Below are positions 2,745 to 17,313 of a stretch of 17,313 nucleotides of DNA, piece by piece. Location: NCBI GenBank assembly GCA_038093975.1, contig JBBPTG010000388.1, positions 1-17,313 on the forward strand. Reading direction: 5' to 3'. The translations under genes were made by a program, and so were the position numbers. This DNA comes from Chalciporus piperatus. Its lineage: Eukaryota > Basidiomycota > Agaricomycetes > Boletales > Boletaceae. Within the stretch, counting starts at the first letter, position 1. Each line of letters begins with the position of its first letter. The notes below the pieces were generated by a model that saw nothing but the letters and a program-made list of their open reading frames with translations, had not been told where the DNA came from and did no database searches.

Positions 2745-2899
2745 TAGTTGTAGATGCTACAATGTCGATTCAAAAAAGATCCATATGTACATAAATTGTT
2801 CCATTTGTTTACAAAAGTGCACAAATAAGTCATAGGTGCACATATGACTACAAATGACTGGCTATGACATACAGGGTTTTTCCTGATGTCATTTACAGC
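661..2899 (+). repeat. Left arm of a long inverted repeat (Plavaka copy)
   Basis: This stretch is the reverse complement of 15075-17313. Paired coordinates sum to 17974 along the whole arm, so there are no net indels over 2239 bp. Differences noticed are all transitions: 1300, 1306, 1423 and 2408 (partners 16674, 16668, 16551 and 15566). Identity stops sharply at 2899/15075, which marks the 3' end of the Plavaka element. The outer end is not visible because the partner arm runs off the window, so the true arm is longer. Confidence 0.97.
2745..2899 (+). repeat. Plavaka terminal noncoding region with short phased motifs
   Basis: This is the noncoding end of the left Plavaka copy, downstream of the transposase stop. 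ATGAC occurs at 2844, 2854 and 2864, exactly 10 bp apart, and its complement GTCAT at 2829 and 2888. Such subterminal arrays are typical transposase-binding sites in CACTA-like elements; a binding role here is inference. The element appears to end in GTCATTTACAG(C) at 2898/2899, because homology with the inverted copy stops there. Sequence 15075-15229 is an identical copy in inverse orientation. Confidence 0.7.
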
Positions 2900-3315
2900 C
2901 TCCGGCTGAGCCAGGCTGTCTCCTGGTCATAGATATATCTGGGGTACACTATGTGAACATGAGATTTTGCAACTGTCCAGAGGCCGATGCAGCTCATAAA
3001 CAGCTCTTTCTGGCTCAGCTTTTACCTTCCACCATCAAAGAGCCGAGCACTGTATTTACCTTTCGGCTGCTTGACGACTTCATCCGAGACAATCTGGAAT
3101 GTGGCACCTCTGCTTCCAACTACTTTAGCAAGATTCGGCGGATAACATCCAATGCATTCCCACATTTGGTGCCTGTGGGTGGCTTCATTGCTCAGCCGAA
3201 GCCCAGCCGAAGCTGAGCTCATAGTGATAACAGAACCGATATCGAGAGCTCATCCGTGCCGCTCGACTATGGAGGCTGTTAAAGCTGCTCAAGTGGAATG
3301 GATATGGAGAATGTA
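2900..3315 (+). pseudogene. KDZ transposase fragment (end of CxC2 region), truncated both sides
   Basis: The frame is open from the Plavaka junction to 3174 and matches, residue by residue in pattern, the intact KDZ protein encoded further right. Shared features are VIDISGVHYVNMRFCNC against IDSSGIFVQTVKWCKC, then FTFRLLDDF, and then RITSNAFPHLVP against RVTNNAFPDSLP. A GT-AG gap at 3175-3233 sits where the intact gene has an intron, and homology resumes with RYRELIRAARLWRLL up to about 3315 and then fades. The N-terminal part is missing exactly at the Plavaka boundary and the catalytic core is absent, so this is a dead remnant. It is too diverged from the intact gene to be a recent duplicate. 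Confidence 0.78.
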
Positions 3316-3769
3316 GTACCAACCAAGGTCACATGATGTGTTCGCGCGCGAAAAATTCAGCAAGTTTCGAGCCACTAGGAAAAGAAAGGCTACACTTTAT
3401 TAGCATTTTAGACTAGTACTCAATACCATTCATTTTACTTGTTCTTACCATTGAATATGCATCTAATATTACGCTGTTTAGTATATTAGTACTACAAACT
3501 TATATAATTGCCAACTGCGAGTTTCCTGGTGTACTGTAGGAGGCCTGTGGACAGTGTGAACTTGGCCAGTGGCTATGGCGCGGCTGTGAATTGGGGCAAG
3601 TTCTGTCCCTAAATGGATGATTTGCTGATGTTCTCGTCTCCCGATCGCCGTGCCACGGGCTCGCCTCTTGACGACCACATCTCAGACATCCCAGTACCAA
3701 GCTCTGTCAGCCGTTCTCCTTCCAGCAGTGCTCTATGACCTGCAAATCATACTCACAGAACTTTTAGGT
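3316..3769. other. Intergenic stretch without a supported gene
   Basis: An AT-rich part (about 3360-3510) is followed by a GC-richer part (about 3515-3769). Short open frames exist on both strands, but none shows a recognisable domain or a convincing exon structure. The abrupt composition change suggests juxtaposed remnants of different origin. No RNA gene was recognised. Confidence 0.5.
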
Positions 3770-4212
3770 GGTACAGGCCGGGCCTGTCCCTTAGAGAGGC
3801 TTCGGCCTGTACCAGTTGATCAGAGCTCACCCCCATTGTAAAACTGGTATAGGCCGGATATCTCCTATAGGGACCCTTCGGCCTGTACCAGTTTATCAGA
3901 GCTCACCCCCATTGTAAAACTGGTACAGGCCGGGCCTGTCCCATAGAGAGGCTTCAGCCTGTACCAGTTTATCAGAGCTCTATTATATTGTAGAACTGGT
4001 ACAGGCCGGACATTTCCTATAGGACATGCTCGGCCTGTACCAGTGTCTCAGAGGCTAGCTTGACTGCAAAGCCGGTACAGGCCGAGCATGTCCTATAGGA
4101 AATGTCCGGCCTGTACCAGTCTATCAGAGCTCAATCCCATTGTAAAATTGGTACAGGCCGAGCTTGTCCTATAGGGTGTCTTCAGTCCTAAAGGAAGTCT
4201 TCGGCCTGTACC
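3770..4212. repeat. Six-unit tandem array of 76-bp hairpin-forming repeats
   Basis: The motif GGTACAGGCCG (one unit carries GGTATAGGCCG) starts at 3770, 3846, 3922, 3998, 4074 and 4150, an exact 76-bp period. In each unit it is followed about 33 bp later by its complement, mostly CGGCCTGTACC; unit 3 has CAGCCTGTACC. Each unit can therefore form a stem of about 11-13 bp closing a roughly 22-nt loop. Hairpins are separated by a conserved linker containing CAGAGCTC in most units. The sixth unit carries about 19 extra bases inside the hairpin and ends at 4212. Function is unknown. The array lies between the KDZ remnant and the 3' end of the minus-strand gene at 4329. Confidence 0.93.
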
Positions 4213-4328: not shown

Positions 4329-6978
4329 TTATGCATAGTCATCACCTTGCAGCTTCCTACTCTGTTTCCGCTGACAATTGCTGCGGTGTCCTTCGCCAGC
4401 ATCAGCATCCGAGTTCTTGGAAGGGGGTGCACCAGAGGGTCCAGCAGTGGCAGAAACATCAGCCAACTTTCGTTGTTTACTCCCATCTTTCTTCTTCTCT
4501 GCTTTGCTCTTCAATTTCCCTTTTTCTTCCTGTTTTACCTCCAGCGGCTTCAAGCCTGACTGTCCCAGCTCTTCGGCCATCTGCTGCCTTGTCTCTTCTT
4601 CCATCTTCTTTCGCACTTCTTCTTCAATCTTTTTTCGCACTTCCTCCTCCACTCTCTTCCGTAATTCCTCGGTTTTCCTTTTCATCTCCTCCTCAATCTT
4701 CTTTTCTCTGAGCCTTGTTTCCTCGTCCTCATCCTCCTCATCCTTGTCCTCTCTGGCTGCATTCTCCCTCTCTTCTCCTACCTTTTCACCCCCAGACTTT
4801 GCCAAGGTAGCAGAGGCTCGCGCTGATACCTCTTTGATGGCAGCCTCAACCTGATTCGCCCTCTGAACACCTAAAATCGAATTTTTCAGGAACCCAGGTG
4901 TGTTGTCATCGTCTTCCTCCACCTCGACTGCTCTCCAACACTCCCGTAGAAGCAAACCGAGCCCCAGCACCACGACAGTGCCCTCGTTCCTGTCCACAAA
5001 TTCATACTTTTGCAGCGAAGCCATGGTTTTGCGAAACTGGTCATGTTCAGAATGGAGCTCCTCTGGCAGATACGTTTTCGCCCAACACCAGGATGCCCAA
5101 ATTGGCAGCCCTCCTTTTGACCCCGGCTCAACCGAGCGAGAAGAAGAAGGGACCTTGAAGCAATAATATCAGTATACTGACCAAAATCATAGATTCAAAA
5201 AGTATACTTACCTTTTCGGGTAGATTTCTCCATCGTTCCAACAGCTCAATGTATACCTGATTCCTTGAAAGATTTTGCAGAAATTGAATATGATTGTCTT
5301 GACCAGATGCGGGGCTTGCCACCTCTGGTACCTCAGGTTGTCCAGAAAGATGGGGATGCTTGAAAGCTGGCCTCACTGGCGATGAGCCCCCGTCTTCTTT
5401 GTCTGTACCAGCCTCCTCATTCTCAACAGCCTTTTGCTTACCAGCTAGTGGTCTGATAGCGCTTTCTTCATCCGCCTCGGCCTCCACATACTTTTTCTTT
5501 GTTGGCGCACGGCGAGGATGATTCTGCGTAGACCTTGCAAACACAGACAAATCTTCATCTCTTGCTTTGCTGAATAGAACAATTGGCTGCTTGTCCTTTA
5601 CTCGACTTTCCCAGTGGGTCCACAATCGCTCTGTAGCAGTCTTTTTGAGCTTCGAAGGGTCCATCAAGGTGAAGTCCTCAGGAAGGCAGGCGACATCAAG
5701 GAACTCGGTCAGTGCCTTGCAAACATCCATTCATGGCACAGCGACCTCTCTCTTTGTGATCCGTACTAGATTCTATTAGTCTAAGCAGGCAGATAATGAG
5801 AATTACCACATACCATAAGCTCTTTTGAATATTTCTCGTATAGCCTCCTGTCTGGCCAACAAGAGTCGAGGCCTGGTTTCCGGAAGTAGGGGATGTCCCG
5901 ACACGTCCACATCAATAACAATCTCTTTGGACTCAGATTCTGCCTCATCCTCCGAGTCATCTACAATGTCGGAGTCAGTGAATCAGGCTATCTATATAGA
6001 TTCAGTCTTACCTTTTTCCTCGATGTATTTATGCAGAAGATCTGCACCCTCCTTGATCCAAGTCTTGGTTTTATTAGAATGCACCGTAAATTTCCTGTCC
6101 CGTGTACTGGGAGGATCAGTCTCAAAGCTGACCATTTCTGTCAGTATCGCAAGAATAAGAATGTATATGACAAACCCACATAGAAGTTTTGTACTCCTTG
6201 TTTGGTAATTGAAAACTGGTCAATATGACTGCATAAACCCCCATGGTCCTGTGAATAAGGCCAAGGAATTCCTCTGTTCGATCTGCCAGATTTTTCCTGT
6301 GATAACTGTGGAGAGCAAGAAGACGTGAGTAAATCTTACATGTCAGAGTCAATAGCTTACACGTCAAGCTTGGGCAACTCAGTGACCCCTTCAGTATTCC
6401 ACTTTCCAGCCACCCTCTCAGCTTCATCCAACCTATTCTTCGACAGACCGTTGAATCATTCTTGTACAACAGCAGTCCGTTTGCCAAAGTCACTCTTATT
6501 CGTCTTGTCTCTTGCCTTGGCATCAACCTCGGCTACTTCATCAGCCCACAAACGTTCAGCTGTTCGCTTAGTGTCCCAGGGCTTCCTAAAATCTCCACAG
6601 TGCACTGGCCTTGCTCGAGCCTCACGTTCCTCTGGAGTGAGTGCCTTTGTGGGAGCCTCGACACCAGCCAAAGCGGCTTGTTCACGAACTCTATCGTTCT
6701 TCTCTAAGTGAGTAAGGAATTCAGTGTGAATTGCCTATAGAGTGGAGGAACATCAGGAGTAGCTCTACCATGAAGCGTTCAGGACAACTTACCACACGAA
6801 ACTGGTTAGGCAGTTCTACATTCTCGCCAGCTTTGACCAGGTCATCCCGAGCTTTGACAATCTCATCGCAACATTCCTTTAAGATTGCTTGACGAGTTGG
6901 CTCTTTTCCCTGAGCAGCTTTGTATAGCTCTAAGTGTTTGTCAAGAGTGGATTTGAATACAACAGTCCAGGCAGACAT
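4329..6978 (-). pseudogene. Multi-exon gene of unknown function with two in-frame stops; charged coiled-coil C-terminus
   Basis: The inferred start is the ATG at 6978-6976. Exons (minus strand) are 6978-6793, 6734-6361, 6305-6180, 6127-6012, 5960-5814, 5765-5212 and 5153-4329; all introns are GT-AG and the phases close, giving about 775 codons. Two TGA codons interrupt the frame, at 6458-6456 (after TAVVQE, before FNGLSKNRLDEAE) and 5733-5731 (after REVAVP, before MDVCKALTEF). I found no plausible intron that removes them; TGG in the ancestor is likely. The second TGA is followed directly by an ATG at 5730 that opens a 447-aa frame, so a shorter C-terminal protein remains possible. The last exon is rich in Glu/Lys/Arg heptad-like EEEVRKK repeats (about 4570-4720), a predicted coiled coil, followed by a Lys-rich tail. 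I do not recognise a named domain. It lies directly downstream of the H3-tail-like gene, on the same strand. Confidence 0.65.
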
Positions 6979-7211
6979 GATGGAGAATTGGTGCAGGTGT
7001 TGTAATTGAGGTGCAAAGATGAAAAAATGCGTGCGAACACAATCACAATACCAGTACTGCATGCCCATAAGCTGTCTTCATTTTGGCTAATTCAGGAACT
7101 ACCTCAAATAGGAAACCTACCCGTTTACCTAAAGATTTGACCACACGCACAAAAAAAATATAATACTGCATGGCATCATCAAGCTACTCTAAGAGAAACC
7201 AGGATCAACTA
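6979..7211 (-). other. Intergenic spacer between two co-oriented minus-strand genes
   Basis: This 233-bp gap must hold the 3' end of the gene stopping at 7212 and the promoter of the gene starting at 6978. A short A-rich run lies at about 7148-7160. No definite promoter element was recognised. Confidence 0.4.
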
Positions 7212-8865
7212 TCATACTATCCTTTTCATCCACCCAGACACGCTCTGCGACTGCCCAGCTGCTACTGTAACCTTACTGTTCTCAGGTTGAAGAGCATTGA
7301 ACGATCCTTTCTCCTGAACCCGCTTACCATCCACCCAACCACACTTATTATTCCTGCACTCAAAAACATACCCATTTAGCTCCTGGCACCATACCGAAGC
7401 CCAAGGGTTCAGAGAACCACAAGTACCACATTGAAGTGGCACCTCGCATCCCCAAGGCTTGAAATCCTTGTGGATCCACTCGTATTTGGTGGTGGCCTCG
7501 GCGAGATGGAAGACCGAGCTATGTTGCCCCAAACCCGGGGCCAGTTTGAGCGAGTGCTCGAGCGCCGCCCTAAAGGGAAATCCCAGAATGACCACCGACT
7601 TGGTGACGTTCATCAGCAGGTCAGCGGTGAGGATGGGAGAGAGATGAGTGGCATTGAAGGCAAGGGTATTAGCCACCCCCAACTTATCTCCCATTGTATT
7701 AGCACAAAACATAAAATACATGAAGTGACTTACGCGCGCACGGCCTGCATTAACTCATCCCGGGACTTCTGCATGATAGCACCACAAGCAATCATATAAA
7801 GGATTGCTCCCTCAAGGATTGGCTTGAAGGGGCTTAAAATGAGACTGATCCACTATGAAACATGTGAGCTATAATGAATCCGCTGCATAGAACACTTACC
7901 TCCTCCACCGATGCAGCACATGCAGCGCCATCCTCATCCAAGCCGAGCCAAAGGTCACCGGAGTCATCGTCAGGATGGTTTGTGACCACAACAACGACAT
8001 GCTTGAAGGTCTTCTGGAGCAAGGGAGCCAATAGCTTGGCAGCCTCCCTCGGCCAGGCCAGCTGGGCTTTCGACTTGCCGACATCTAAAGGAACGTCGAG
8101 AACTTGAAGCCGGTCGTCTGTACAGTAGTCGCCCAGCAGATTCTCGATTAATGAGAAATGTCCAAAGCGGGTGATTGTTGTGAGGCAAAAGTGGATGAGG
8201 AGCGTGGGGGGCGAGAGCACCGACGAAATCAGAGATGCTTGAAACCTCCCTTTCACGGTGAGGAAAGTGGGGAGGACGGGACGACCGTCGAGCGTGAAAC
8301 CCTGTACCGTAGTTAGTTCGAACGAGATGACAGGAAATGCCACAAACTTACAATGTAGGGATTGAACTCTGTATGCTTTTGTCCCCGACAGGCCAGCCAC
8401 TCGCACGAAACACACCTGAAACTAACCCCGGGAGCCGTTACCTTATCGAGCAGGTCCGCAGGGATTTCAAGGCAGCGGTTACAATCCGCACGGTCACAAC
8501 CGGGCTCGTCGCACTTGAAGAGCATGCCACCATCTTGGCAAAGGGTGCAGAACTAGTATCTATAGAGTTAGTAGGCTTGAATGTGATGTACAATGTACTT
8601 ACCTCGGTATCCGGGTCGAATGGCAGTGGCGCATTGGGCCCCGACGACCGCGAACACTTGGTTGCTGGTTGTTGCTCGTCTGACTATCCAATGGTCAATA
8701 GAAAGATAACTGAATGAGATTTATGCTTACCTGAACCTTACTTGGTAGCATTGCCATGTGTGGCCGTTTCGAGCCAGCAGAGCTGGCAAGTTCTGGTCGC
8801 GCGAGTCGGACTCGCTTGGCGGTTCCACCCATGGTCTTCTTGGCTGTCTGTTTAGTTTTGGCCAT
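7212..8865 (-). CDS. Histone H3 tail-mimic protein with ADD/PHD-like zinc finger and C-terminal zinc ribbon
   Basis: Six exons (minus strand) are 8865-8731, 8683-8603, 8552-8352, 8301-7900, 7852-7742 and 7682-7212. All introns are GT-AG and in phase, giving 466 aa with no internal stop. Residues 2-22 copy the H3 tail without gaps: after the Met, AKTKQTAKK, then GG at the H3 G12/G13 positions, 13 of 21 positions identical, Lys at K4 and K9, and R2/R8 replaced by Lys. Residues 74-122 form a finger C74-x2-C77-x8-C86-x4-C91-x4-C96-x2-C99-x19-C119-x2-C122. The eighth ligand pattern (Cys where a PHD has His) and the GGMLFKC motif resemble the ADD finger of DNMT3/ATRX. Residues 395-424 form a C-x2-C...C-x4-C ribbon. 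The middle (140-310) is unrecognised. The start was chosen because it gives the exact H3-like N-terminus; an in-frame upstream ATG at 8913 would add 16 residues and mask it. Nuclear chromatin action is inferred. Confidence 0.82.
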
Positions 8866-9006
8866 GGTGATCAGAGCAGATACAAAAAAGAGAATCTGGG
8901 AGCTGAATGGCACGAGCCTGGGGTATGTAGTAGTGTACTAGTAGAACAGTTGTCCTCGACTCGACAGCATATGCGGACTTCAGAAAATGAGACACATCGT
9001 GAATGT

Positions 9007-9027
9007 CACGTGGTTTATGATCACGTG
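9007..9027. promoter_or_regulatory. Paired CACGTG boxes upstream of the H3-tail-like gene
   Basis: CACGTG occurs at 9007-9012 and 9022-9027, 15 bp apart. The second lies within the 10-bp palindrome ATCACGTGAT. They sit about 140-160 bp upstream of the ATG at 8865 on the minus strand, a normal promoter distance. CACGTG is the core site of bHLH regulators in fungi; binding here is inference. A further GTCACGTGAC palindrome lies at 10122-10131. Confidence 0.4.
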
Positions 9028-9177
9028 ATACAAAGAAATACAAACACAATGCTCTACTTTACAATTTTCGCTCGAGAAGTCCAACTTCCGCCGTTTTTTG
9101 AACTCATGCTATCCTTCATATCTCACACATACAATCCCTCACCGCACTTCAACAGTGTATCAACCCGGCACACCACC

Positions 9178-9214
9178 TTTTTATTATCTAGGACTGCAGC
9201 CTAGATAATAAAAA
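9178..9214. repeat. Perfect 15-bp-stem hairpin
   Basis: TTTTTATTATCTAGG (9178-9192) is followed by a 7-nt spacer and its exact reverse complement (9200-9214). It ends in an A-run and could be a bidirectional terminator-like structure or the remains of a small inverted-repeat element. No gene end clearly uses it. Confidence 0.75.
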
Positions 9215-9284
9215 AGTGCTTGTTGCCTTTTAAGGTGTGTACTTCACGCCATGTCTCATTACTGATTTTTTTCGTTCTACAATT

Positions 9285-9316
9285 CTACAGGTTCTCTATT
9301 CTACAGGTTCTCTATT
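9285..9316. repeat. Two-copy 16-bp tandem repeat
   Basis: The 16-bp unit CTACAGGTTCTCTATT occurs at 9285-9300 and again, identically, at 9301-9316, preceded by a partial copy. This is probably slippage; no function is visible. Confidence 0.85.
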
Positions 9317-9395
9317 CGGGGAGCTGGCTTACCCTCACGGTACACAAGAACAGTGTGTACCCTATGTTTTAATCCTTGATGCTAACTCTTTCCGG

Positions 9396-9660
9396 GGCTT
9401 GATTGGCAAGGGCGTGGTGTATCGGGATGCTTGGTCCTGTGCTCGCGTCCTTGTTGGTCTTCCGAGGGCGCGGTGTATCAGGACGCTTGGTCCTGTGCTC
9501 GCGTCCTCGTTGGATTTCTGAGGGCTTGATTGGCAAGGGCGCGGTGTATCGGGACGCTTGGTCCTGTGCTCGCGTCCTCGTTTGTTTTCCGAGGGCTTGG
9601 TTTCCGAGGGCGTGGTGTATCGGGACACTTGGTCCTGTGCTCGCGTCCTCGCTTGTTGGG
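9396..9660. repeat. Four-unit direct repeat (56/71-bp spacing)
   Basis: GGCGTGGTGTATCGGGA-type units start at 9411, 9467, 9538 and 9609, spaced 56, 71 and 71 bp. Each is followed by CTTGGTCCTGTGCTCGCGTCC. The 15-bp length difference reflects presence or absence of the GGGCTTGATTGGCAA prefix. Frames through the repeat are open on both strands but are repeat artefacts, not proteins. Confidence 0.88.
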
Positions 9661-9677
9661 TTTCTAATTTCCTGTCT

Positions 9678-9923
9678 GACCTTGCTCGCTAATTGCTCAG
9701 TAAGTCTTCACTGTGGTTCTCTCACACTGCTCACGCTTTTTTTCAAAGGATGATCTATGCTAGACCAGTCAAGATTTCTGTTCCCATCGCGTTTTTAGAT
9801 GACCTTGCTCACTAATTGCTCAGTAAGTCTTCGCTGTGGTTCTTTCACACTGCTCATGCTTTTTTTCAAAGGATGATCTATGTTAGACCAGTCAAGTTTT
9901 GTGTTCCCATCGTGTTTTTAGAT
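9678..9923. repeat. 123-bp tandem duplication (two copies)
   Basis: 9678-9800 and 9801-9923 align end to end without gaps. I count eight differences (about 93% identity), six of them transitions. Both copies contain GTAAGT and a T-run ending in CAAAG, which superficially look like intron signals, but no coding frame supports this. Confidence 0.9.
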
Positions 9924-10247
9924 TGTAGAAAGATATTTTTGGTTGTCATGTACTTTCGTTTGCAGAGCTGGCTTGGAAAGGAGAGGGCCCCTCCTGGAAA
10001 AGCTAGCCTGCCCTTTTGTTTTTGTTTTTGTTTCATTTGCAAAATTCGAGTTAGTCTCGAGCACTTGATGTTCAAATATAACAAATGGAGATTATGTGAC
10101 ACACTATGCCGATTTTCCAAAGTCACGTGACCACATGCCGGTCCTCTGCGGTCAGACCAATTTGATCTACTGGTGTTTCACTGTAATGAGTGTAGCTAGC
10201 CAAATAAACTTATTCATTCATTGTTAGAGCTGCAACCCTATCCCATG
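9924..10247. other. Noncoding spacer with CACGTG palindrome and AATAAA-like 3'-end sequence
   Basis: The stretch contains a TTTTTG-rich run near 10018-10030, the perfect palindrome GTCACGTGAC at 10122-10131, and CCAAATAAACTTATTCATTCATTG at about 10200-10223. The last resembles a polyadenylation region with TTCA repeats. It may be the tail of a noncoding or retroelement-derived transcript on the plus strand. No protein-coding gene is supported. Confidence 0.4.
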
Positions 10248-10422
10248 TACATTCTTCCCTCGACGTGAGTTGGGGCCCTACCCTACATATATTCTCCCCT
10301 TGATCCTACATACATTCTTCCCTCGACGTGAGTTGGGGCCCTACCCTACATATATTCTCCCCTTGATCCTGCATACATCCTTCCCTTGACTACCACATCT
10401 AAGGTGAGTCGGGGCCCTATGT
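10248..10422. repeat. 63-bp tandem repeat, about 2.7 copies
   Basis: TACATTCTTCCCTCGACGTG-type units start at 10248, 10311 and 10374, an exact 63-bp period. The first two are nearly identical. The third is diverged, with about 13 extra bases before GTGAGTCGGGGCCCTA. The array lies upstream of the TET/JBP-like gene. Confidence 0.88.
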
Positions 10423-10525
10423 TAGCTTCCCTTACAGCTCTCAAATTTTGATAGGCTATAAACTGGCATAACTATAAAATTGCCTCCCTGTCAGTGTCAA
10501 TCATGTCGTCACATCGTGGGAAAGA

Positions 10526-11921
10526 ATGTTGAAATTGAGGGCGGCTATGAGTTTAACCTTAAACTTCTTCAGACTAGATGATGACCTTGCATCCTTTGCT
10601 GACAGAGATCTGAAAGGTTTTGAATGCAGGCATTAAAAGTTCTGTCATTGTGAATGGGAATGTCGCCTTTGACAAATTTCAGAAGCCAAGGTATGAGAAC
10701 AATGTTTTAACTGAGAAAAAAATAATAATATAGGAAATGGCAGGCTTAGGACTCAGGGTTTATTGCAATCATTACGGATGCAATCAGAGAGGTTGCCTTC
10801 TATTCAGCCGACAGTGGGCATTATGTCACCCATCACAGAGGCCGAGATTAAGCTTTGTGCTGCTGTCATTGTGGCAGCCTTCCTAAATCCCAGTATGTTT
10901 AGCCTGGAATCTTTCCTGATGGAGATGTCCTACCTTCTGTTTCTAGTTAGGCTGCCATGGGACTATGAGAGATGGTCTGAGTCTGAGCGCAAGCGACACT
11001 CAGAAAAGTTTTTTGCCCAGGTACATTTGGGGCCCATCACTCAGGCCACCACTGTTGTAGACATGCACGGGAGGATTATTGTATGGTATCTTCCTGGCCT
11101 GTTAACTCCTCAGCGAGTTGTAATCTGCCCAAGTTAGAAAGGGGTTTCACTGACTGATTTTTATATTATCAGACGGAATTAAATATCATAACCACTACAC
11201 TGAAGAATGATTTTGGCAAGTCACTGAAGAATAGCAATGATCCAACCAACTGGTGAATGCAAGGTTTCACTTGTGGAGGCAGCAAGGCCACTTTTGGCGC
11301 CGGAAAGTTGTCATTATCTGTGGGTAAGCTGGCAACTGGACATAAGGTATGTTATGCCCATTGTTATTCAGATCAGCAGAATATTGACATTCAGGGAAGC
11401 GTCAGCAAGATCCCATATACTCATCTCCGTTACTCCATTTGGAGACCATTCAGAATTGGCTTCAAATGATACAGCCTTTAGAGGGGTTGCTCGATGCAGT
11501 ATTGCAGGTGGTGCATCCAGAAATGTGGGCAGGGAACTCAATCTCTACCCAGCAGCTCATTCAACAGAGTTCCTCATTCTTTTGGCCTACAGTCTACTCC
11601 GGTATGGACGTCATCGCTAACCGACTCTCGCCACCACATCGGGATCAGGGTGGGGCCCTGACCTTCTATGATCATTTGCTTAGCTTTGGTCAGGATCATG
11701 ATGCCAAACTTCGGTTGGATGATTTTGGGGCCAAGTTCGCTTATGGGGTGGGAACAAGTATACTGTTTCCTGGAAAGCACTTGACACACTCTGTGGATGA
11801 GTGGACTGGTGGTGAGAGATTGGTGATTGTTCATTATTCAAAGGATGATGTGCAGGAGCGATTGGGAATAGCCAGACCCTCTTTTCCCACCCAGTCAGCA
11901 TGGTGGACCTGCCATACTTAG
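10526..11921 (+). pseudogene. TET/JBP-family 2-oxoglutarate/Fe(II) dioxygenase, KDZ-associated (one apparent stop; 5' end unresolved)
   Basis: TET/JBP enzymes oxidise 5-methylpyrimidines (5mC or T) in DNA using Fe(II) and 2-oxoglutarate. The well-supported body is about 10617-10690, 10750-11116, 11173-11323 and 11395-11921 (GT-AG introns 10691-10749, 11117-11172, 11324-11394; phases close). FWPTVYSGMDVIANR is followed by PPHRDQGG, giving the HxD iron ligands at 11637-11645. LTHSV provides the second His (codon 11787) and GERLVIVHYS the 2-oxoglutarate Arg (codon 11817), all in the right order for the family double-stranded beta-helix. A TGA at 11254-11256 interrupts PTNW/MQGF; a CGA ancestor (NWR) is likely. 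Upstream, a frame through FFRLDDDLASFADRDLK (from the ATG at 10526) meets the VLNAGIKSSVIVNG frame with a one-base shift at about 10616, so either an unseen intron or a frameshift exists. The core is intact; whether a full enzyme is made is doubtful. Confidence 0.8.
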
Positions 11922-12009
11922 GTCAATTTGTTAGAGGTTCGCTTGAATACATGTTCATTTTTTGGGTGATAATATAAGTCCTGAGCCTGAATGAACTTGA
12001 CATTGTACC

Positions 12010-15000
12010 ATGTCACAGGCTCCAAAGACGAAGAAAGCCAAGGTTTCCACTAGCAGATCTAGACCTGCAAAACGTGAGCCTAGTGGCAACTCTTTGGTAG
12101 TTTTCGCCCCTGCTACAACTAGAAGGGGGAAACCCACCTATCGCTCTGTGGATGCCACTCCTTATTACGAATTATCATCTGATGAGGAAACACCCTGCAG
12201 AAGAAAGGTACCCAAGACCCCCGGACCTCACGAGACCAGTCAACTTCCTCTCTTAGAGATAGCCTTTGGAGATGAGGCCTTCTCATTTAATGTTCAGGAG
12301 GCTTCCAGTACAAGGTCAACCAAAGTAAGGACTCATTTAACTGTGAGATTAAGTATCTAATGAAGAGAAGGGCCAAAATGATTTTCTGGCAGAGTGGATT
12401 CCTTATCGGTCTCAATATCTCTCTATTCTTCTGCAGTCGGAAGCCACCAACGATTCCCTGCAGAAATGTATGGACTGTGCTCAGGGGAATGGCTCTATTC
12501 ACTGCCTCTCATGCCTCGGTAATCATGCCTGGTGTGGGCAGTGCGCTGTAAAGGCACACTGCAAGATTCCTTTTCATCGGCTTCAGCAGTGGACTGGAGA
12601 GTTCTACCAGCCTGTAACTCTCGGAGACCTTGGATTCACATTGAATTTAGGTCACAATGGAGATCCATGTCCACTGAACCCGACTATCGGGGATGTGGAT
12701 TGGTCCTGTGATAATTTTACTATCATCGACTCTTCGGGAATCTTTGTTCAGACCGTAAAGTGGTGCAAATGCAATGGAGCCAGCAATCAGGACAAACATC
12801 TTCAACTTCTACGGGCACGTCTTTTTCCTTCCAGCATTACAAAGCCTCAAACTGCATTCACATTTGATGTCCTGGACGAGTTTCTCATTGAAGCCCTGGA
12901 GTGCAAAACATCCGCTGCTAGTTTCTACACAAAACTCAGGAGGGTCACCAATAATGCCTTTCCTGATAGCCTTCCGGTAAGTGTCATTCCAGGTCTGATG
13001 TATCACTGATTCTAACAGGGATGTTTATCAAAAGGATCGCTATTGGGAGTTGATGAGGGTATCAAGAATGTGGAGAGACCTGACAAATCGAAAACGAGCA
13101 GGATTTGGCCATGAACCTGAGCAAAAGCCAGGTCATGGACAGTTGGCCATATTTTGTCCAGCATGTCCTCAACCTGGAATCAACTTGCCAGAGAAATGGA
13201 TGGAAGAGTATGATAGGTAAGCAGGTCGTTTTTAACTACCGGTATATTATTGACATGATTGAAGTGATACCATGGCCCTTCGTTATGTGGTGGATGGAAA
13301 TTTTACTGCTCAGCATATGAAGATGCAAAGGCCAGAGGATGACATCAGTCTCTCTGACGGTCTGGGTTATATGGTGGCCAACAAGCCGTATGAAGACCAT
13401 GTGAAGGCAGCAGAGACTAACAATGAGGTAGATTCTAGGTTCTGGTCAATTCAATTAATAATAAATGGCTCATTCTTCACCTTTTGTAGAGGTCAACTTG
13501 TCAGAATCATCGAGCAGTCAATAATGCCAATACAAGCAAGACGCACTTAAGGGCCACTGGGGTGGGCGCAACAGCCTGTGCTCGACATGGATGCTTTGTT
13601 CCCCATTCTGTGGTCGACTTTTACAAGGGAGAACAGTGAGTTATCTAGTTTGAATAACACATATCTGGTAATTGTAAACTCTGGCTTGAAATAGGCACAA
13701 GAATATCGACTACTCGATTTGCCAAGCCATCTCTTACAAATCTGATGGTATACAAAAAGCCATGATCATTTATGATGTGGCTTGTCAATGGCACAAAAGA
13801 TTTCCAGCGAGAGTCCAGAAATGTGATGCTCTCTCAGTGCCCGAGAATATGGAGATTGTGCCTGCCATTGGGAAATGTCATCTCAGCGCTCACAAGCTCA
13901 CCTGCTTTCCTAGGTTTAGTCTGATGTTTCTTAAAGGAGCAGGTCATGTTGACGGAGAAATCTTGGAAACTCTTTGGGCCTCCTTTAACAAAATCTCTCC
14001 TTCTGCTAGATCTATGACTTTGGCTCACCAGCAGGAGCTCTATGATGATTACATGAGGGATTCTAATTGGAAGAAGCTTACTGGACTTGGTTCGTGATAC
14101 TTCTATTGGTTGGTACACATCAAAGTTCACTGAGATTTGTTATATAGTCAAAGCTCTATTAAGGAAACATACATTGGCATCAGATGGGGTGAAGAAGACT
14201 AAGGAACCATTTGAGGAACTAAGTGAATCCTTGGAAATTGGCATATTGAATTCTTGGGTCCAAGAGGCTGAAAGAGCAGACAAGGAAAGAGATAAAGCTT
14301 TGGATATATACAGTTTGCAAATGGGCAAAGGTGTGTCATCATCGGAACATTTGTTTTCAGAGTTGATTCACTCTATTCATAGCCCCTACCTTGGCGGAGA
14401 TGAGATTGAATCTTCTGAAGGAAGGGTGTGGCTCTGGATAATTGAAGGGATTAGTATTGAGGATGCTCAGTAAGTGCTGGATATGCGTTTCTTCAAGGTG
14501 GTGTTTAAAATTGCATTGCATAGAGATGCACTTCGTGCAGATATTCGATGTCTGCCGAGGGATGCCTCGGCTAGACAAAATGCTAATGTTGTGCAAAAGC
14601 GACAAAGGCTTCATAGGAGGATAATGAAGTTTAATCAGACAGCCTCACTCTTCACTGCTGGATTAGAGTGGGACTCAGATGCCACCTCTTTACCCAAGGA
14701 TGTTCCTGAATACTGTCTCGAGGAAGACCCTCAGGCTGGGATTGCAGAGATAGTGGATGAGAATGAAAAGGAACGAATTTTTTGGGAGGAAGATAATGAT
14801 GAGGAAGCCGAGGAAGATGAAGACGTGGATGGGTATTGTGCAGCAGAGAACCTATCCTTCTGGATGCCTTCTTCAGTGGTGGCCGGCAGCTCAGATCAAG
14901 AGGAGGGGTTACAGGATATGATGAAAGAGGAGGTCCAGTTGCGCATTGGACAAGCTAATGATTGCTTGGAACAACTGAGAACTGATTTGGGGGTTAAGTC

Positions 15001-15025
15001 TGTTCTCTTTAGGTCAAAATTCTGA
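12010..15025 (+). CDS. KDZ-superfamily transposase with CxC2 cysteine cluster (intact frame, 8 exons)
   Basis: Exons are 12010-12324, 12371-12976, 13035-13216, 13265-13427, 13490-13635, 13695-14089, 14148-14469 and 14524-15025. All introns are GT-AG (46-62 bp) and the total is 2631 nt, an exact 876 aa plus stop. The N-terminus is basic. The CxC2 cluster includes CMDCAQGNGSIHCLSCLGNHAWC and KWCKCN, then FCPACPQPGINLP. Core motifs are VVDGNF (Asp at 13293), CARHGCFVPHSVVDF, MIIYDVACQW (Asp at 13774) and GAGHVDGEILETLWA (Glu at 13957), the presumed DDE triad, followed by an acidic stretch and the C-terminal VQLRIGQANDCLEQLR. The C-terminus stops soon after VLFRSK, where I expect more residues; the stop is 49 bp before the inverted Plavaka copy, so the tail may be truncated. 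It lies 88 bp after the TET/JBP-like gene on the same strand, the published KDZ-TET linkage. Confidence 0.92.
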
Positions 15026-15074
15026 AGCTCTACCTCGGTCCGGACAGATACCAGATCCCAACAAGAGCTCAGAA
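15026..15074. other. Junction between KDZ transposase stop and inverted Plavaka copy
   Basis: This 49-bp remnant follows the KDZ stop codon. A one-base-shifted reading gives a TRAQK-like string that could be residual KDZ C-terminal coding sequence, which is weak evidence. Plavaka homology begins at 15075. Confidence 0.4.
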
Positions 15075-17313
15075 GCTGTAAATGACATCAGGAAAAACCC
15101 TGTATGTCATAGCCAGTCATTTGTAGTCATATGTGCACCTATGACTTATTTGTGCACTTTTGTAAACAAATGGAACAATTTATGTACATATGGATCTTTT
15201 TTGAATCGACATTGTAGCATCTACAACTACTAGTACAACGTCTGATAGGAATACTTACTAGACCAATTATTCAAAAGGAAGGTAGAACAAGTGTCTAAAA
15301 CAATATCACCAGTCCAATCGGCAGAACGCTCATCATCAGTAACATGCGGAATTAGTTGACAACTCTGCCTAATGGTTTTGAGAGGGATAATGTCACCGGG
15401 AATGGTAGGAGCCAAGTTTGAGATATTTGGAGGAAGAGAAGGTTTAGTAACTCTATACATGTTGTGGAACTTGCCTGGTGACGCCGAATGCTTATACCAC
15501 TCTATGTATGCCAATGGTTCTTTTGGCCAGGTATCAGGCGCCTGAGTCAAAAGAGAAAGGGAGGAAGGAAGTTTGAAAATAACTCGCAAACGTCCTATTC
15601 GCATTCCTTTGAAAGCAAGATGTCAGATTGTTGGGTACAAATTCAAAACAGATACTATACTTACCTTGCAAACCTGTAGTCTCTGCATCGCTGGTATAAG
15701 CCACGACAACGGTATCAAACCTGCCTGGCTTGGCTTTGATGGAATCTATCCCCTCTGTACCATCAACGTCGTTACCGAGTATGTCGAGAGCGAACTTGCA
15801 GGTATGCCAAATGTCCAGTTTGTCGAATGGAAGATGGGCAAATGGAATGTTGCGGCGGGGAAGAGCTTCATCAGCGGGTAGAAGGGAGTTGAGATAGGTT
15901 CGAAGATGATGAGGGAATGAGGGAGCGTGATGGTTCTTTTGGATGCTATTGATAGTTTGGCCTGGGACGGCTGGCTGACGAGCGATCACCACGCCAGCTC
16001 CAGAAGTTTTTGGATTGAGTGGTTCCTCCCGATCATCCTGAAGGTCGTCTTGAGTCCTGTATTCGAAGTAGCCCTGGAAAAGACTGATTTTCTCTTGTCG
16101 CTCCAGCCACCGGGTCATTTGTGGAACTTCATTTCTGAAGTTGGAGGCTCGCCAGCCTTCCTTGGCCATGTCTATATGGAAGCGCTCGAAAGCTTCCGTG
16201 TTGTAGTTGTCCGTGGTTCCGAAGTATCGAATAGAGTCGGCGTAATGCACGAGAGAATGGAACTTGGGGATATTGAAATGTTCTCGGATGCCCAGCCCAT
16301 TTTCCCCAGCGAGGAAAATCTCTTTATTCTCGTGGAAGAGACTGAGCGATTCCTCCATCCATTGGAGGGAATCATCGTCGTGGGTGGGGTATTGGGCTAT
16401 GTATATGAAGTCGAGGAGGGCGCGGTAGGAGGTGATGACCTGGGAGGGGACTTTACCGACCAGGACGCCCAAGAGAATGCGGGCCATGTCCTTTCTTTCT
16501 TTGCCAGCGATTTGAGACAGTTTGGACCACCCATTGGTAAAGTGACGAACGCCGAAACAAGGAGGGAGAGTGCGGATTCGAGAATCGAGCTCCTTGGTGT
16601 CCATGAGACTGGTGCACCAGGAGGTGAGGTACTTGACGATCCCATGGTATAGTTGGTGGAGAACGTCAGGCGTGATGGAAAGATGAATGTCGCAGAGAGG
16701 GAATCCGTCCCAGAAAGGTCGACTGACCCCACCAGACAGCAGCGCAGCTTTGCAAAGGTCCAGGTAATTGGAATTGGACGTGGCCTGTGCCATGGCGTTC
16801 CTTATGGTATCGGCAGTAGATTTCTGAGTGCGAGGTGGTCCAGGAACTCTCTCTTCCAGCTCATCCTCTGTGACGAGACACTTGGCGCATGTCCCGTACT
16901 TGGCGCAGGTCACCAGACACTGCTCGGGATAGTCGGCGACGTACGCAGCGAGGATTGGATGAACTCGCCTGACTTTCCCATCTCCTCCCGCTATCTCCAC
17001 TCCTTTCTTCCCTGCCTCTATCAGTGGCTCCAATATCAACCTCATCGACTCATGGAATAGCTGTTGAACGTGCGCCGACTGTTCTTTCTTTGTCAAGTCC
17101 TTGCCGACAATCTTGCTGATGGAGAGATAGCCGATGAGGACGCATGCATTTTCGCTAGGCTTGCGTCGAAGGGCGCGAGGAATGTTGCCCAGCGTCAGAT
17201 ACACCGGATATGCCATTTTCCCCCCAGAAAACTGCGTAAGCTGCGTCTTATCGGTTGAGATGATGACGGGGGCAACGCAGGAGTGCTCAGGTAACTGTTT
17301 CTGAGACAACTGT
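15075..17313 (-). repeat. Right arm of the long inverted repeat (Plavaka copy)
   Basis: Reverse complement of 661-2899 with no net indels; four transitions were noticed. It begins with the Plavaka terminal noncoding region (15075-15229) carrying the same phased GTCAT motifs, and continues to the window edge. The remaining 5' part of this element, the equivalent of 1-660, must lie outside the window. Confidence 0.97.
15230..17313 (-). CDS. Plavaka-family transposase, right copy (5' part outside window)
   Basis: Inverted counterpart of the left Plavaka gene. Visible exons (minus strand) are 17300-15665 and 15606-15230, with the intron 15664-15607 in the same place; the window ends inside the equivalent of intron 626-673. 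The main exon encodes the same protein as the left copy, including IISTDKTQLTQFSGGK and EAFERFHIDMAKEGW. The only amino-acid change noticed in the 591-residue open frame, TSLLPFS to TSFLPFS, falls inside the intron. No premature stop is visible. Both copies are therefore equally young and may be functional if their 5' parts are intact. Confidence 0.9.

Follow-up and report, generated by a model that had tools for sequence, protein, structure and literature searches.

A transposon-borne gene of Chalciporus piperatus whose protein very probably unites a copy of the histone H3 tail with a finger of the H3-reader type and a predicted caspase-like domain

Why should a gene lying among transposon genes begin with a copy of the histone H3 tail, and what does its protein carry behind that tail? 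We have addressed this question in a stretch of 17,313 nucleotides from the basidiomycete Chalciporus piperatus (the window; contig JBBPTG010000388.1, here C388), where an earlier note had pointed to an H3-like segment at the exact N-terminus of a minus-strand gene. The analysis led to an anatomy that we regard as very probable, namely one transposon-borne gene for a protein with a copy of the H3 tail, a finger of the H3-reader type and a predicted caspase-like domain. The features that carry it are the following:

8800..8862, minus strand: H3-tail mimic AKTKQTAKKTMGGTAKRVRLA, immediately after the start Met (ATG 8865-8863)
8403..8552, minus strand: zinc finger of the PHD/ADD type with Cys at all ligand positions (residues 73-122), similar to fingers that recognise the N-terminus of H3
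7500..8211, minus strand: predicted caspase/CHAT-like (clan CD) domain, approximate limits transferred from homologues
7975..7977, minus strand: putative catalytic His 248 (NHPDDDSGD), with H in 12 of 12 aligned homologues
7784..7786, minus strand: putative catalytic Cys 296 (ACGA)

Residues 1-21 of H3 and residues 2-22 of the window protein were identical at 13 of 21 positions (A1, T3, K4, Q5, T6, A7, K9, G12, G13, A15, R17, L20 and A21). These are exactly the positions given in the earlier note, and a recount of 8862-8800 agreed with them; as the note had also said, K stands in place of R2 and R8. Against the host's own H3, which has T10, the identity was 14/21. The minus-strand frame from 8865 reads MAKTKQTAKKTMGGTAKRVRLARPELASSAGSKRPH..., and no in-frame ATG occurs from the stop at 8940 down to the predicted start at 8865 (context ATCACCATGG). 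The alternative ATG that the note had placed at 8913 had to be dropped, the minus strand reading GTG there.

Chance resemblance to H3 was ruled out by composition probabilities and an ATG control. A 13/21 match has a probability of 3.5e-11 with the composition of the whole protein and of 1.1e-8 with that of its own first 45 residues. The two strands of the window hold 681 ATGs that are followed by 21 codons, and the second-best H3 score among them was 6. When loci L009-L040 were added to the window, none of 8,839 ATGs scored 7-11, and the 17 that scored 12 or more were all one of five H3 genes or copies of the mimic family; some of these loci overlap, so that some ATGs are counted twice, and the loci were chosen for holding or adjoining the mimic family or H3, which makes the set a background rather than a genome census. 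A true histone gene was likewise ruled out, in line with the earlier note: the Pfam scans gave no histone family behind the tail, where the finger and the caspase-like domain are found instead, and the five pattern-found host H3 genes (L036-L040, all with T10 instead of S10) are located elsewhere. The full-length family profile (A8) matched H3 histones in the PDB at 1.6e-5.

Protein searches returned 14 homologous proteins, from Boletus, Lanmaoa (2), Butyriboletus, Chiua (2), Suillus (5), Rhizopogon, Melanogaster and Amanita muscaria, the Amanita entry having 10 member sequences. The search uses a word filter that relatives could escape, so this number is a minimum; no relative was matched in the plasmid collection with 313 residues as query. 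In its own genome (35.5 Mb, 484 contigs) the family was found on 11 contigs. The H3-like block was present in 13 of the 14 homologues, spanning Boletales and Amanita, with P0009 as the sole protein lacking it. It lies right after the annotated Met in nine, after one extra residue in two (P0008, P0010) and inside longer gene models in two (P0001, P0011).

Proteins of different sub-families are about 30% identical, those within Boletaceae 60-72%. The mean pairwise identity of the block was 0.76, the highest of seven segments, compared with 0.31 for the linker (13/36 pairs alignable), 0.47 for the finger, 0.40 for the following 42 residues, 0.33 and 0.42 for the caspase-like part and 0.32 for the C-terminus; these values refer to nine of the 12 sequences of alignment A7, P0004, P0009 and P0011 being left out as odd gene models. 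The earlier note had named homologues that lack the stretch or leave it unconstrained among the things that would speak against its idea, and the comparison did not bear this out. The H3-tail mimic at the N-terminus is thus confirmed as real and conserved, its constraint being legible in the sequences themselves.

We have compared the block with H3 in 17 rows, made of the 13 homologues that have it and four own-genome types (P0009 excluded), which match the H3 tail at 10-15 of 21 positions. K9 and G12 are kept in 17/17, T3, Q5 and T6 in 16, G13, A15 and R17 in 15, K4 in 14 and A7 in 13. By contrast, K14 is kept in none, K18 in one (V, I or L in 16), R8 in one (replaced in 16, by K in 13) and A1 in five. 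Such losses count against the simple idea that the block is read exactly like H3, and so does one own-genome sub-family (C149, whose C132 member has a stop), in which the block lies about 40 residues from the start. The C47 type (C47, C166, C1, C216 and C36) reads ARTLQKPNKTTGGSATRVMLA, with 12/21 identity to H3. V-R-T or A-R-T stands directly behind Met in P0002, P0005, P0006, P0007 and the C47 type, where the window has A-K-T, and removal of Met would expose a free mimic N-terminus. Position 10 is T in the own-genome N-terminal mimics, as in the host H3 genes, and S in 10 of 12 Boletales mimics.

The same rows bear on the possibility that the block descends from a captured 5' exon of H3 and has been retained as a signal for nuclear import or chaperone binding, without mimicking any marks. 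The basic residues of the block would suit such a signal, and the changes R8K and K18 to V, I or L are so widely shared across the rows that one common ancestor of the block is likely. However, the best kept positions are the uncharged T3, Q5, T6, G12 and G13 (15-17 of 17) whereas the basic K14 and K18 have been lost, the opposite of what an import signal would lead one to expect. We consider this explanation improbable.

Behind the tail, the finger has eight zinc ligands in PHD spacing, all of them Cys as in ADD fingers; in the 10 rows of alignment A5, C7, C10, C19, C22, C27, C50 and C53 are invariant and C30 is nearly so. A profile of the ten fingers matched, in the PDB, the CHD4 PHD (5.1e-8), the ATRX ADD (1.1e-6), AIRE PHD1 (1.3e-5), SP140 (1.9e-5) and BHC80/PHF21A (4.9e-5), with NSD3, MLL PHD3, TRIM33 and others lower. 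Profile A8 also matched CHD4 (3e-9), BHC80 and AIRE, and aligned along residues 2-92 with 3a1b, an H3-DNMT3A ADD chain, at 1.2e-5. The N-terminus of H3 is read in its unmodified form by CHD4, AIRE and BHC80, and with K9me3 by ATRX. Judged by its sequence, the finger is of the H3-tail-reader type. The residue preceding its Phe-Cys is E in the window and D in P0001, P0002, P0005, P0006, P0007 and P0009; we take this position to be that of the K4-reading acid of BHC80. Covariation of the mimic K4 with this acid, as inspected by eye, was set aside, the independent lineages being too few to claim it: every row that has the acid either has K4 or lacks the mimic, but four Suillus/Rhizopogon rows with K4 do without the acid.

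The domain behind the finger is predicted to adopt a caspase/CHAT fold with a His/Cys dyad, on the grounds of AlphaFold2 models of the homologues P0006 and P0013 together with their fold matches. The predicted His and Cys sit at the ends of two strands, and both are present in the window copy. Across the 12 homologues, the Cys column holds C in 10 (8 in register), V in one and a gap in one.

With a predicted protease-like fold, a finger of the H3-reader type and an H3-like segment all in one chain, the block might be the domain's own substrate or pro-segment, so that an H3-tail clipping protease would first cut itself. Clipping of H3 by other protease classes is described in the literature, but the H3-clipping papers listed, as far as their available excerpts go, name no clan CD protease. 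The conserved block is also longer than a usual cleavage site, and cleavage activity and specificity are postulates from the modelled fold; hence, this reading appears quite unlikely to us.

The earlier note had spoken of a transposon setting, which was borne out by the genes that adjoin:

8866..10714: head-to-head intergenic region, of which the segment 9910-10033 recurs in C1 and C36
10715..11921, plus strand: TET/JBP dioxygenase gene (Pfam Tet_JBP, E 8.7e-12 in 11388-11921)
12001..15025, plus strand: KDZ transposase gene region with a CxC2 cysteine cluster (E 5.3e-29 in 12353-13009; limits are those of open frames)
4329..7077, minus strand: gene B, a multi-exon partner on the downstream side of the mimic gene

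The TET/JBP gene lies upstream of the mimic gene in divergent orientation, with the KDZ transposase beyond it, and both C388 and C36 carry the two together beside the mimic gene. TET/JBP scored over the cut-off on six of the 11 family contigs, divergent each time, a tally that is a lower bound. The distance is within 10 kb in C388, C1, C166 and C36; the genes of C132 and C178 lie at 17-20 kb with scores unlike those of the other four, and may be unrelated. Gene B, pieces of which gave no Pfam family over the cut-off, is found downstream of the mimic gene in C388, C1, C47 and C216 and as rearranged pieces in C166, and it is fused to the mimic gene in the Suillus gene models P0004, P0008 and P0010. 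The aligned DNA of the window genes differs from that of C36, C1 and C166 by about 29-36%, which suggests that the arrangement is old, although the copies are not independent. With regard to the earlier note as a whole, the mimic, the setting and the absence of a histone fold have stood, while the finger, the caspase/CHAT-like domain, the TET/JBP gene and gene B had been overlooked.

Based on these parts, we tentatively propose a mechanism that we consider possible, though short of probable. The gene would be part of a DNA transposon of the KDZ type, equipped with a TET/JBP dioxygenase as well, and would encode a chromatin effector, acting in the nucleus, composed of the H3-tail copy, a disordered linker, the PHD/ADD finger, the caspase/CHAT-like domain and a zinc ribbon. 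The H3-like tail would bind the finger of its own chain, or that of another chain of the same protein, and thereby keep the caspase-like domain in check. At chromatin, unmodified H3 tails would displace the copy from the finger, and the freed domain would then cut or re-shape H3 tails or a tail-bound silencing factor. TET/JBP would meanwhile oxidise 5-methylcytosine, and the element would stay expressed. That the mobile element has evolved a complete two-pronged anti-silencing kit of this sort, with TET/JBP on one side and a histone-gated, H3-tail-directed caspase-like protease on the other, seems to us rather unlikely. Should the parts do what their appearance suggests, transposons would resist chromatin silencing not only on the DNA but also on the histones, and an H3 tail could act as an inbuilt switch. 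The gene may give a mobile element a means of its own to interfere with host chromatin.

There are precedents for tail occupancy of a finger. In the available excerpts on BAZ2B (PMC5663869), an H3-reading PHD finger and an H3-mimicking stretch share one chain and the stretch competes with H3, a precedent from which the mimic tail may occupy its own finger. BAZ2B differs in that the stretch is an interdomain linker, not an N-terminus, whose effect is ascribed to a positively charged cluster and not to a residue-by-residue copy, and in being a host protein (PMC5663869). The 3a1b chain likewise has an H3 tail N-terminal to the DNMT3A ADD finger; unlike the protein studied here, it is man-made and has no caspase-like domain.

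Several observations weigh against the self-binding, caspase-gating mechanism. All PHD/ADD models stayed under the Pfam cut-off in the seven members with scores: the window finger reached the DNMT3 ADD PHD at E 0.012 (16.2 bits vs 27 needed), and PHD scored 8.8-12.7 bits vs 24 needed in P0002, P0005, P0011 and P0013, with none in P0003 and P0012. MLL PHD3 is an H3K4me3 reader, and its presence in the match list means that the list alone does not settle the specificity of the finger. The residue preceding Phe-Cys is G in P0003, P0004, P0012 and P0014, R in P0013 and L in P0011; with such variation, K4 reading may not be universal. For the caspase-like part, no peptidase family was found in Pfam (five proteins) or NCBIfam (four proteins) at E values up to 10. 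Foldseek matches were weak for both AlphaFold2 models, with none at 1e-3 for the first, for which receptor and Rossmann-like folds stand among the caspases in the match lists. The two models represent homologues, not the window copy, and CHAT/caspase folds include dead enzymes. In neither model was the tail docked on the finger (the alignments had only 9 and 11 rows); the predicted local distance difference test (pLDDT) was 25-42 over the first 40 residues in both, leaving the N-terminus unplaced, and self-binding of the tail is thus not predicted. Regarding the neighbourhood, five of the 11 contigs (C47, C149, C216, C123 and C250) have no TET/JBP among the matches listed. C388 and C36 are the only contigs where KDZ was found beside the mimic gene, after TET; the stretches examined around C1 and C166 gave none.

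The state of the window copy is a further point on this side. Its gene was modelled as follows:

8865-8731, 8683-8603, 8552-8352, 8301-7900 and 7852-7734, minus strand: exons 1-5 of the mimic gene, with GT..AG introns
7212..7683, minus strand: last exon, out of phase by one base when joined to exon 5
7341..7430, minus strand: C-terminal zinc ribbon CGTC...CRNNKC, in the out-of-phase last exon, four Cys invariant in 4 aligned rows

Predicted exons 1-5 (7734..8865), when joined, encode 312 amino acids without a stop, and the joined protein aligns with the homologues. The end that the earlier note had given to the span, 8600, is close to an exon boundary but is not the end of the gene, with further exons below it. 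The last exon is out of phase because the acceptor of the last intron has moved by one base relative to the sister copies: the window reads GATAAG|, versus GATAG|C, in phase, in C47, C166, C216 and C1. The window copy may therefore be broken, with a truncated or altered C-terminus.

The neighbouring TET/JBP gene is also compatible with a decoy acting in trans. Here, the H3-like tail with a free N-terminus (ART/VRT-K) would bind host PHD readers or H3K4/K9 enzymes, much as PAF15 and DPPA3 bind UHRF1, and would in this way weaken the upkeep of DNA methylation or heterochromatin. Lacking K14 (0/17 rows) and K18 (1/17), such a tail cannot take the marks that H3 takes there. P0002, P0005 and P0006 begin VRTKQTAKK behind Met, and the host genome has SRA-domain and DNA-methylase matches over the cut-off, which makes a methylation pathway to fight likely. 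According to the available excerpts (PMC7060239, PMC11187062), PAF15 starts VRT and binds the UHRF1 PHD like H3, with dissociation constants of 2.2 vs 1.5 uM, and the VRT motif of mouse DPPA3 competes with H3 for UHRF1. In both PAF15 (PCLAF) and DPPA3/STELLA an H3-like segment is thus the ligand of the UHRF1 PHD, a precedent from which the mimic tail may compete with H3 for host readers. PAF15 is alike also in having the segment at the exact N-terminus with V replacing A1, as in P0002, P0005 and P0006; the two differ in being vertebrate host proteins with a short VRT match, not carried on a transposon. Their chains presumably have neither a reader finger nor a caspase-like domain. On the other hand, a decoy leaves the H3-reader-type finger in the same chain unexplained, position 1 is T or P in 7/17 rows, the block is internal in the C149-type sub-family, and no host reader emerged from the analysis. 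We find this explanation doubtful, if worth keeping beside the self-binding mechanism.

Histone mimicry is known mainly from viruses, bacteria and a few host proteins. Among the open-licence PMC matches listed, whose titles and abstract openings were covered, none reports an H3-tail mimic encoded by a transposon. TET-positive Kyakuja/Zisupton (KDZ) transposons of Agaricomycetes, for which TET/JBP has been proposed as a means to escape methylation silencing, share the KDZ transposase and TET/JBP with the window element (Kojima 2025, PMC12730594); in its main text, that paper mentions no PHD, zinc finger, mimic, H3-like, protease, peptidase or caspase (PMC12730594). The Kyakuja type is defined by CA..TG ends and a 7-bp target duplication, and the right side of the window element is cut at 15072 by a Plavaka copy. 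Fungal KDZ/TET elements were reportedly first described by Iyer in 2014. Clan CD CHAT/caspase-like peptidases such as SAVED-CHAT (8tl0) resemble the predicted domain in fold and in the His and Cys at strand ends; they differ in that the domain studied here has no sequence-family match and has a finger and an H3 tail attached. Taken singly, the parts are all of familiar kinds; we rate their combination as new because no Pfam or NCBIfam family covers the architecture and none of the literature matches listed, in the excerpts available, contains it. The copied tail, the finger of the H3-reader type and the predicted caspase-like domain have stayed together in one chain despite about 30% identity between sub-families, across Boletales and Agaricales.

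Some minor observations concern the surroundings of the gene. The own genome has at least 25 TET/JBP loci above the Pfam cut-off, most of which outscore the four beside the mimic gene. Direct repeats occur at 9395-9923, within the head-to-head intergenic region. Two inverted Plavaka copies, at 661-2902 and 15072-17313, lie on either side of the region, are 99.8% identical and reach the contig end; the pair may form a composite element or may represent very recent insertions. A second CxC2 KDZ fragment (2884-3153), separate from that at 12001-15025, abuts the left Plavaka end. Finally, 3769-4185, left of gene B, holds an array of units of about 76 bp with GGTACAGGCCG/CGGCCTGTACC palindromes; a comparable array stands at C47:41579-42231, so that the units could be one of the element's subterminal repeats.
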